Positions 37,417 to 44,179 of a DNA stretch of 64,000 nt are shown here, piece after piece. The notes beneath the pieces are model-generated. The model saw nothing but the letters and a program-made list of their open reading frames with translations, was not told the origin of the DNA and searched no databases. Source of the DNA: Comamonadaceae bacterium (GTDB lineage: Bacteria; Pseudomonadota; Gammaproteobacteria; Burkholderiales; Burkholderiaceae_C); NCBI GenBank assembly GCA_947378785.1, contig CANCLK010000005.1, positions 1-64,000 on the forward strand. The letters are read 5' to 3'. Both the position numbers and the translations under genes were made by a program. The first letter of the stretch is position 1; the number at the start of each line of letters is the position of its first letter.

Positions 37417-38556
37417 ATGACTCTCGCCGCTTACGCTTCTGATCCTTCCAAAACGCGTGGCCGTCGCTTTGCCGAGTCTGTCGCACCGACGCGAACCGAC
37501 TTTCAACGCGACCGCGACCGCATCGTGCATTCCACGGCTTTTCGCCGCTTGGTCTACAAGACGCAGGTTTTTTTAAACCATGAAGGCGACTTGTTCCGCA
37601 CGCGCTTGACGCACTCGCTGGAAGTCGCGCAGCTGAGCCGCTCGATCGCCAGGCCTTTGGGTTTGAACGAGGACTTGGTGGAGGCGGTGGCGCTGGCGCA
37701 TGACCTGGGTCACACGCCCTTTGGCCATGCCGGGCAAGACGCGCTGAATGAATGTATGGCGCCGCATGGCGGCTTCGAGCACAACTTGCAGAGTTTGCGG
37801 GTGGTCGACCAGCTTGAAGAGCGCTACCCGGCTTATGACGGCCTGAACCTGACGTTTGAAACCCGCGAGGGCATCCTCAAGCACTGCTCGCACCGCAATG
37901 CCGAGCTCATCGAGCAGTCAGAGCCAGGCGGTGTGGCGCGGCGCTTTTTAGACCGAAGCCAGCCCAGCCTGGAAGCGCAGCTGTGCAATTTGGCCGACGC
38001 CATCGCCTACAACGCGCATGACATTGACGATGGCGTGCGCTCAGGTCTGATCACCATGGCCCAGCTGCAGTCGGTCGAGCTGTTTGAGCGCTACTGCGTT
38101 GAGGCGCTGACCGAGTATCCCGACATGGCTGAACCTTCACGCGCCCGCCGCTTGTTGTATGAAACCATACGCCGCATGCTCAGCGCGCAGGTCTATGACG
38201 TGATCGCCGCCACCCGGCAGGCGCTCAGCCAAGCCGCACCGACCAGTGCTGATGAGGCCCGTTTGGCCGGGCCCTTGTTGCGTTTCAGCCCCGCCATGCA
38301 CGCGCAATCGACGGCGCTGAAGCAATTTTTGTTTGCCCAGCTCTACCGCCATCCGCAGGTCATGCAGATGACAGGTCAGGCTCAGATCGTGGTGCGTGAG
38401 CTGTTTGAAGCCTATTCTGCGCAGCCGTCTGAAATGCCAGCGGAACACGCGGCAAGGCCAGATGCAGCCCGCACTGTGGCCGACTACATTGCCGGCATGA
38501 CAGACCGATTTGCCGGACGCGAGCATGAGCGGCTGACGGGGCGCAAGCTACTCTAA
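37417..38556 (+). CDS. dgt: Deoxyguanosinetriphosphate triphosphohydrolase-like HD-domain protein
   Basis: This 379-residue dNTPase hydrolyses deoxynucleoside triphosphates to nucleoside and triphosphate. The HD metal site is visible: H66 (RTRLTHSLEVAQ), H95-D96 (ALAHDLGHTPFGHAG), and a later D in NLADAIAYNAHDIDDG. N-terminal RRFAESVAPTRTDFQRDRDRI is typical of the Dgt type-2 family. It follows aroB by 15 bases and probably ends the aroKB-dgt unit. Confidence 0.94.
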   Translation: MTLAAYASDPSKTRGRRFAESVAPTRTDFQRDRDRIVHSTAFRRLVYKTQVFLNHEGDLFRTRLTHSLEVAQLSRSIARPLGLNEDLVEAVALAHDLGHTPFGHAGQDALNECMAPHGGFEHNLQSLRVVDQLEERYPAYDGLNLTFETREGILKHCSHRNAELIEQSEPGGVARRFLDRSQPSLEAQLCNLADAIAYNAHDIDDGVRSGLITMAQLQSVELFERYCVEALTEYPDMAEPSRARRLLYETIRRMLSAQVYDVIAATRQALSQAAPTSADEARLAGPLLRFSPAMHAQSTALKQFLFAQLYRHPQVMQMTGQAQIVVRELFEAYSAQPSEMPAEHAARPDAARTVADYIAGMTDRFAGREHERLTGRKLL

Positions 38557-38580: not shown

Positions 38581-39282
38581 ATGGCCCGCCAACCCCGCCT
38601 CACTGTTCCAGGTTATCCGCACCACGTGATCCAGCGTGGCAACAACCGTCAGCCGATCGTGCTGGATGATTCGGACCGGCTGCGCCTGTTGGGGCTGTGG
38701 GCAGAGCACGCGGCGCGCTGCAAAGTAGCGCTGCATGCCTACGTGCTCATGGACAACCACTTTCACCTGCTGGCCACACCCGAAACTCAGGATGGCCTGC
38801 CACAACTGATGCAGGCGGTGGGTCGCAGCTATGTCCGGTATTTCAACAACCGGCATGGCCGCAGCGGCACCTTGTGGGAAGGGCGCTACAAATCGACCTT
38901 GATCGAAACTGACCGCTATTTGCTCGCCTGCATGGTCTACATGGACCTCAATCCCGTGCGTGCAGGCATGGTGGCAGAGCCGGCGCAGTACCCGTGGTCG
39001 AGCCACAGGCACTGTATTGGACAAGGCGTGGACAAGTTGGTGACGCCGCATGCACTGCTTTGGAACTTGGGCAATACGCCGTTTGCGCGCGAGGCTGCCT
39101 ACCGTGAGTTGGTGCATGCTGGTGTTTCACCCCCTCAGCAAGAAGTCCTGACGCGCGCCGCCTTGACCGGCTGGGCTCTGGGGTCGACGGCATTTCTGCA
39201 GGAATTGCAAGAAGGAACGACGCGGCGAATAGCCCCCAACAAACGCGGCAGACCCAGGCGTCCTGACAGCCTTGGACAATAG
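38581..39282 (+). CDS. REP-associated tyrosine transposase (RAYT/TnpREP, IS200-like Y1 family)
   Basis: This 233-residue HUH single-strand endonuclease of the Y1 transposase family has MARQPRLTVPGYPHHVIQRG at the start, the HUH motif HFH (H60-H62, DNHFHLL) and the RAYT-typical LMQAVGRSYVRYFNNRHGRSGTLWEGRYKS segment. That segment holds the candidate catalytic tyrosine. The protein has no cargo, and I see no matching left-end repeat. RAYTs are usually single-copy, immobile genes that process neighbouring palindromic repeats. A perfect long palindrome lies 45 bases downstream. The gene is intact and sits between dgt and gltB. Confidence 0.9.
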   Translation: MARQPRLTVPGYPHHVIQRGNNRQPIVLDDSDRLRLLGLWAEHAARCKVALHAYVLMDNHFHLLATPETQDGLPQLMQAVGRSYVRYFNNRHGRSGTLWEGRYKSTLIETDRYLLACMVYMDLNPVRAGMVAEPAQYPWSSHRHCIGQGVDKLVTPHALLWNLGNTPFAREAAYRELVHAGVSPPQQEVLTRAALTGWALGSTAFLQELQEGTTRRIAPNKRGRPRRPDSLGQ

Positions 39283-39299
39283 CCGCCTTGGGTTGTTTT

Positions 39300-39378
39300 G
39301 ATCTGACCCCAATTAATTCAGAAGCTGAATGCCAAACGAAATAAATGGGATCTGACCCCATTTATTTCGTTTGGCATT
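39300..39378. repeat. RAYT-associated repeat: direct GATCTGACCCC copies and a perfect palindrome
   Basis: Two copies of GATCTGACCCC start near 39300 and 39349; the second lies across the loop of an inverted repeat. The palindrome arms AATGCCAAACGAAATAAATGGG (39328-39349) and their exact complement (39357-39378) are 22 bp, with a seven-base loop. The GATCTGACCCC / GGGGTCAGATC motif is often seen next to RAYT genes, so this is probably the substrate or end of that transposase. The right arm contains the -35 hexamer of the likely gltB promoter. Confidence 0.85.
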
Positions 39379-39399
39379 ATTGTTGCAGTGCACTATGCT
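39371..39399 (+). promoter_or_regulatory. Predicted sigma70 promoter of gltBD
   Basis: TTGGCA (39371-39376), a 17-base spacer and TATGCT (39394-39399) give a strong sigma70 match about 44 bases before the gltB ATG. The -35 lies in the right arm of the RAYT palindrome. The spacer contains TGCAGTGCA, an odd-centred palindrome that could be a regulator site. Confidence 0.65.
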
Positions 39400-39442
39400 C
39401 GCTTCTCGGAATTTTATTTGACTGTTTTGGATGGGGATTGCC

Positions 39443-44179
<4,737 letters not shown>

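Follow-up and report, generated by a model that had tools for sequence, protein, structure and literature searches.

The closest described relatives of the locus analysed here are the TIRYTs, low-copy Y1/HUH genes of the RAYT type with GGGGWSAS motifs at their ends (TIRtrons; Di Nocera et al. 2013, PMC3733652). TIRYTs probably correspond to RAYT group 1 / subclass 2.1, in the vicinity of which no REP-like sequences have been found (PMC6006769). The TnpAREP protein of the Escherichia coli REPtron, encoded in single copy and described as domesticated, is represented by PDB entry 4ER8, in which it is bound to a REP hairpin. A third system is that of the TldR proteins (named in PMC13418256), which are TnpB-derived, RNA-guided transcription factors. 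Why RAYT-like proteins are kept is an open question; one branch of them is tied, in the genomes compared here, to a single promoter of central metabolism with a fixed operator geometry. Since this tie is fixed and catalysis has been lost in some members, a host function exerted without transposition becomes directly testable. A single-copy RAYT gene beside gltB, sites at fixed distances from the promoter and the frequent absence of cutting residues suggest, at the level of sequence, a regulator of nitrogen assimilation.

The features of the locus in the window, i.e. the whole 64,000-nucleotide stretch of DNA that was analysed, are summarized in Table 1. The original prediction described a RAYT gene beside a palindrome with mismatch-free 22-bp arms, GATCTGACCCC occurring twice around it, and a TTGGCA within its right arm followed, ahead of gltB and after 17 bases, by TATGCT. 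All of these observations were confirmed, that of the RAYT ORF by the Pfam Y1_Tnp profile. Of the two starts of gltB given in Table 1, the downstream ATG is the likelier, because the similarity of relatives usually begins there.

Table 1. Features of the RAYT-gltB locus (positions in the window)
Feature	Position	Strand	Basis or remark
dgt, dGTP triphosphohydrolase, upstream neighbour	37417..38556	+	PRK01286 equivalog, 618 bits vs cut-off 390
gltB-linked RAYT/TIRYT, Y1/HUH TnpA relative, 233 aa	38581..39282	+	ORF, profiles, alignment with 4ER8, AlphaFold model
Codons of G223-R224-P225 in the C-terminal KRGRPRR tail	39247..39255	+	Putatively AT-hook-like, by eye
Site A, GATCTGACCCCAATTAATT in the window, GATnTGTCCCcAATTAAtt in most relatives	39300..39318	+	Motif, alignment of relatives
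Site B, GATCTGACCCCATTTATT	39349..39366	+	Motif, alignment of relatives
Perfect palindrome, 22-bp arms around site B	39328..39378		Outer left arm in this genome only
Predicted gltB -35, TTGGCA	39371..39376	+	Promoter scan, alignment of relatives
Predicted gltB -10, TATGCT	39394..39399	+	Promoter scan, alignment of relatives
gltB, glutamate synthase large subunit	39431..44179	+	ORF list, profiles; likely true start 39443

The RAYT protein of the window matches Pfam Y1_Tnp at 6.7e-10 (39.6 bits, cut-off 23) and NCBIfam REP_Tyr_transpos with 74.7 bits, which is below the curated cut-off of 80; the latter profile is matched by 71 of 73 relatives at E values up to 0.001. Standard annotation may label a gene below this cut-off a plain transposase, which may explain why the linkage described below has been overlooked. 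The catalytic residues are intact (HUH motif H60-F61-H62, Tyr120), the Y...NP motif is present, and the HUH and Tyr positions align with those of 4ER8, the best PDB match both by profile and by fold (Foldseek, 1.1e-08). The AlphaFold2 model, built from 73 sequences of the window and related loci, has a pLDDT of 95.6; in the C-terminal part, where TIRYTs of subclass 2.1 have an HTH-like extension, it contains helices at residues 167-180, 184-196 and 203-211, with no Pfam HTH match. In the 73-row alignment the invariant residues are M1, R3, R6, Q78, G101, R102, G147, W161, G164, T166-P167-F168, R170 and the C-terminal GRP. The latter, with its basic neighbours, resembles an AT-hook and would suit AATT tracts.

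The protein belongs to the RAYT/TnpAREP superfamily, its Y1_Tnp core being related to TnpAREP. It shares with the E. coli system the fold, the HUH and Y...NP motifs and the single copy per genome, but differs from it in the extra C-terminal domain, in that no GTAG REP was seen here, and in the many relatives devoid of catalytic residues. Its similarity to the TIRYTs extends to the low copy number and to the GGGGWSAS motif, which roughly half of the intact relatives carry in inverted orientation on the two sides of the gene. The differences are (i) fixation at gltB, with two direct sites at a constant distance from a host promoter, (ii) repeated loss of catalysis, (iii) the C-terminal GRP tail together with the lack of a Pfam HTH match, and (iv) in the window, the restriction of the GGGGWSAS repeats to the downstream side, the upstream repeat being absent. 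Mobility of the IS200/IS605 type was not seen: the genome carries one copy of the gene, and its locus is fixed across the family.

The search for gltB N-termini covered 110 genomes from the order and 91 from the family, and the upstream DNA was then compared. Of the 89 genera tested in the GTDB family of the window, 88 have a RAYT gene ahead of gltB in the same orientation (82 loci of the family sample, including that of the window, four identified by coordinates and two from the order sample). The sole exception is a draft genome, 80% complete (G213), whose gltB locus (L273) gave no RAYT profile match. The linkage was also found in some or all sampled genomes of six other families (f3, f4, f8, f10, f18 and f32); in the remaining families examined there was no RAYT upstream of gltB. 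None of the 28 class-wide loci from outside the family has an adjacent RAYT; in one of them, L324, a RAYT is located at a distance of about 0.8 kb. Within the genus sample (61 genomes), a RAYT match was obtained in 60, at an identity of at least 59% in 58, and usually in one copy; the gltB-linked gene is usually the only close RAYT of its genome. No report of the linkage was found in the literature searched, a set to which Bertels 2017, the main RAYT classification paper, did not belong, and the linkage is likely to be new to the literature.

In 80 named relatives the RAYT gene lies directly ahead of gltB at almost all loci, including three gammaproteobacterial ones (L078, L102 and L109). The latter have the order dgt-RAYT-gltB, and their RAYTs group among those of the Comamonadaceae type. 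RAYT and gltB distances are correlated (Mantel 0.32, none of 999 permutations being as high). The median RAYT distance between gamma- and betaproteobacterial loci is 0.33-0.34, compared with 0.32 among the betaproteobacterial ones, and the respective values for gltB are 0.28-0.30 and 0.14. Since the gammaproteobacterial RAYTs are about as close to the betaproteobacterial ones as these are to one another, and gltB is not, horizontal movement is likely in this case.

Alignment of 177 intergenic regions revealed a module composed of site A (TGTCCCcAATTAA), an interval of 48-49 bp, site B (TCTGACCCcAATTA), 17-18 nt, the -35 TTG, a 17-bp spacer and TAnnnT. The consensus, tttgATnTGTCCCcAATTAAnt - variable - aattAAttgGaaTCTGACCCcAATTAnt-tg-TTGgca-17-TAtgcT, comes from 68 loci preselected for an A-B distance of 48, an offset of 14 and a spacer of 17, so that its distances are fixed by construction, whereas base conservation and the variability of the A-B interval were not imposed by the selection. 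The bases between A and B vary from locus to locus while A and B themselves are conserved. When both sites are present (149 loci), they are 48 or 49 bp apart in 135 cases (89 and 46, respectively) and 50 bp apart in eight. The distance from B to the -35 TTG takes two neighbouring values in 153 of the 177 loci (128 + 25), site B having been sought with progressively looser patterns (131 exact matches to TCTGACCCC and 25 more to TCTGACCC); in three gammaproteobacterial loci it is 10-11 nt longer, i.e. by about one helical turn. A -35/-10 pair is present in 163 of the 177 loci, with a spacer of 17 in 149 and 18 in 12, and the TTG-17-TAnnnT promoter occurs family-wide.

In the window, the copies of GATCTGACCCC are located at 39300-39310 and 39349-39359, 49 bp apart; counted from the G(ACCC), site B follows site A by 49 bp and precedes the -35 TTG by 17 nt. 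The 3.1-Mb draft genome contains three occurrences of GATCTGACCCC, two of them at gltB. The one further genomic copy of GGGGTCAGATC is solitary and lies away from the RAYT locus, at L001:1501-1511 (G000:C4:23469-23479).

As judged from displaced genes, the A/B sites usually appear to belong to gltB rather than to RAYT. In four loci (L180, L203, L087 and L088) the RAYT lies 0.9-1.6 kb from gltB, and in genome G116 (L132) about 3.8 kb from it, and the pair is still found at the gltB promoter. The exceptions are L121/G113 and L122, where the pair is degraded despite a nearby RAYT, and L237, where it is adjacent to the RAYT and absent within 260 bp of gltB. Of the 43 loci whose compared stretch contains no RAYT, L132 alone has the pair, and its genome has a RAYT nearby. 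Common descent confounds the association between sites and RAYT, as A and B may represent ends of the element itself.

The HUH histidines and/or the tyrosine are missing in a fifth of the gltB-linked RAYTs (39 of 202), in many different residue combinations. On a quick tree these losses amount to at least seven changes by parsimony, at least three of which are forced by well-supported (starred) branches; many of the catalytically dead rows are long branches, and the number of loss events is uncertain. The dead proteins retain the LGNTPF motif, the fold and the C-terminal GRP tail, and A and B are 48-50 bp apart in 24 of the 26 dead loci with both sites. Purifying selection is maintained in the few pairs that were testable: dN/dS is 0.065-0.144 in intact pairs, and 0.096 (L087/L088) and 0.276 (L197/L209) in two dead ones; for none of the dead RAYTs did the sample include a close relative from the same genus. 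The arms of site B co-vary in intact loci (pairing of 0.640 vs 0.596 +/- 0.008 with left arms shuffled), and no co-variation was detected in dead loci (0.436 vs 0.430 +/- 0.016). The RAYTs of the same genomes that are not linked to gltB failed as an all-intact control, most of those in L258-L267 (HTH type) also looking dead. They include a second RAYT paralogue, present in several genera of the family (L258-L265 and L267; e.g. L264, with the ORF on the minus strand), which has a C-terminal helix-turn-helix-like end (LGLSVSRVSRLIA) and in most members lacks the HUH and Y...NP motifs. It is possibly another domesticated branch.

It is conceivable, but rather unlikely, that A and B simply represent the right-hand end of an ancient RAYT element, constant because they are inherited together with a gene that is kept for some other cellular function and depends on its own end sequences, regulation of gltB being incidental. 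In other species, TIRYT genes are flanked by GGGGWSAS repeats (PMC3733652). Here, 74 of 141 intact loci have an inverted copy ahead of the RAYT, compared with 3 of 37 dead ones. Some intact genomes also carry many copies of the motif, several in the form of inverted pairs with a spacing of 68-69 bp: AAWTGGGGTCAGA is amplified (at least 4 copies, range 4-36) in 15 of 51 intact and none of 29 dead genomes (Fisher 0.0007, uncorrected for kinship). Against this origin stand the fixed distance between B and the gltB -35, the displaced RAYTs, most of which have left the sites at gltB, and the dead RAYTs, whose loci have retained A and B but in few cases the upstream repeat. In several genomes with a dead RAYT, among them G226, G249 and G251, the sole copy of AAWTGGGGTCAGA is directly upstream of gltB. 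Loss of catalysis was not significantly associated with loss of either the upstream repeat or the palindrome in a comparison of three phylogenetically independent pairs, which has no power. In three genomes of the family (G205, G176 and G234) the many inverted pairs of AAWTGGGGTCAGA, 68-69 bp apart, are reminiscent of a REPIN/MITE of about 80 bp.

Still less probable is that A and B are operators of an unrelated nitrogen regulator, the RAYT being merely trapped between dgt and gltB. gltB is commonly regulated, and we infer the identity of the A/B-binding protein; however, the motif is a recognised TIRYT end motif, recurs inverted on the other side of the RAYT and is absent from nearly all loci without a RAYT. 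Moreover, one would not expect a gene that is simply trapped to remain subject to purifying selection and to keep its tail invariant once catalysis has been lost.

The interpretation that we favour, and consider fairly probable, is that the locus is a conserved regulatory module in which a domesticated Y1/HUH TnpA most likely binds A and B and controls gltB. The RAYT protein would bind both sites as double-stranded DNA beside the -35, recognising GGGGWCA and the flanking AATT tract, and would thereby control gltB transcription. Activation is favoured over repression on two grounds: relative to the predicted start, B and A are located at about -40 to -57 and -88 to -106, respectively, and the three gammaproteobacterial loci have about one additional helical turn between B and the -35. 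We infer the binding, the direction of regulation and its signal; that known TnpAREP binds folded single-stranded DNA (PMC8266576) counts against the proposed binding to duplex. For the whole family, an influence of the RAYT on gltB is put forward as the leading hypothesis.

The chances appear even that these proteins represent a class of transcription factors that arose from Y1/HUH TnpA, is catalytically dead in several lineages and controls glutamate synthase throughout the family and in parts of the order, as the TnpA counterpart of TldR. In both cases an IS200/IS605-related protein would have become a regulator (putatively so here), but TldR descends from TnpB and is RNA-guided, whereas the gltB-linked protein is of the TnpA type, with no RNA guide in evidence. 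If this is true, a regulator of nitrogen assimilation has gone unrecognised in a large bacterial group with environmental, plant-associated and clinical members.

The promoter scan of the region gave a single sigma-70-like match, namely the predicted promoter TTGGCA-TATGCT, whose spacer is 17 bp long. A sigma-54-dependent promoter (TTGGCAT-N5-TTGC, GG-N10-GC), of which TTGGCA would be the -24 rather than the -35, is attractive in the window, and GG-N10-GC also occurs in many Comamonadaceae-type loci. It is very improbable and was rejected as not conserved among relatives: many members have lost the GG (TTGATG, TTGAGC, TTGCCT, TTGAAT), while TTG-17/18-TAnnnT persists in most of the 177 loci.

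The arms of the palindrome in the window (39328-39349 and 39357-39378) enclose a 7-nt loop. As single-stranded DNA the region folds with -27.4 kcal/mol, and the hairpin is not due to chance, since its z score is -7.6 and none of 200 shuffles was as good. The original prediction held that a mobile-element-related repeat had become part of the gltB promoter, the palindrome donating the -35. A RAYT-related repeat does abut the promoter; the palindrome as donor was ruled out, since TTGGCA-17-TATGCT is present in close relatives without the long palindrome (L005-L011), which still keep a short one at site B; this largely amounts to the refutation that the original prediction had specified. These relatives retain the right side, ...CATTTATTT(T/C)(A/G)TTTGGCATT(A/G)TTGTTGC...TATGCT, and each of them has its own, unmatched outer left arm. 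The promoter therefore predates the long palindrome. Among the 177 loci, the perfect arm at site B is longest in the window (22 bp), followed by 16 and 14 bp, with a median of 3 bp. The long palindrome is a recent local feature, and the half-site pair with the promoter the old, conserved one; by a local perfecting of site B, the left arm in the window has become a mirror of the promoter, as quasi-palindrome correction by template switching would yield.

That the palindrome is the functional element here, as a transcription terminator of RAYT/dgt or a cruciform affecting gltB, is hardly credible: the hairpin is very stable and a terminator-like match spans 39330-39376, but such matches are no commoner in the region than in shuffles, and the long arms are unique to the genome of the window. 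In the RAYT-gltB intergenic regions of L146 and L155, the left arm of site B pairs over a longer distance with a stretch following site A (ATTTGTTGAAT/ATTCAACAAAT) than with its own right arm, which corresponds to alternative hairpins.
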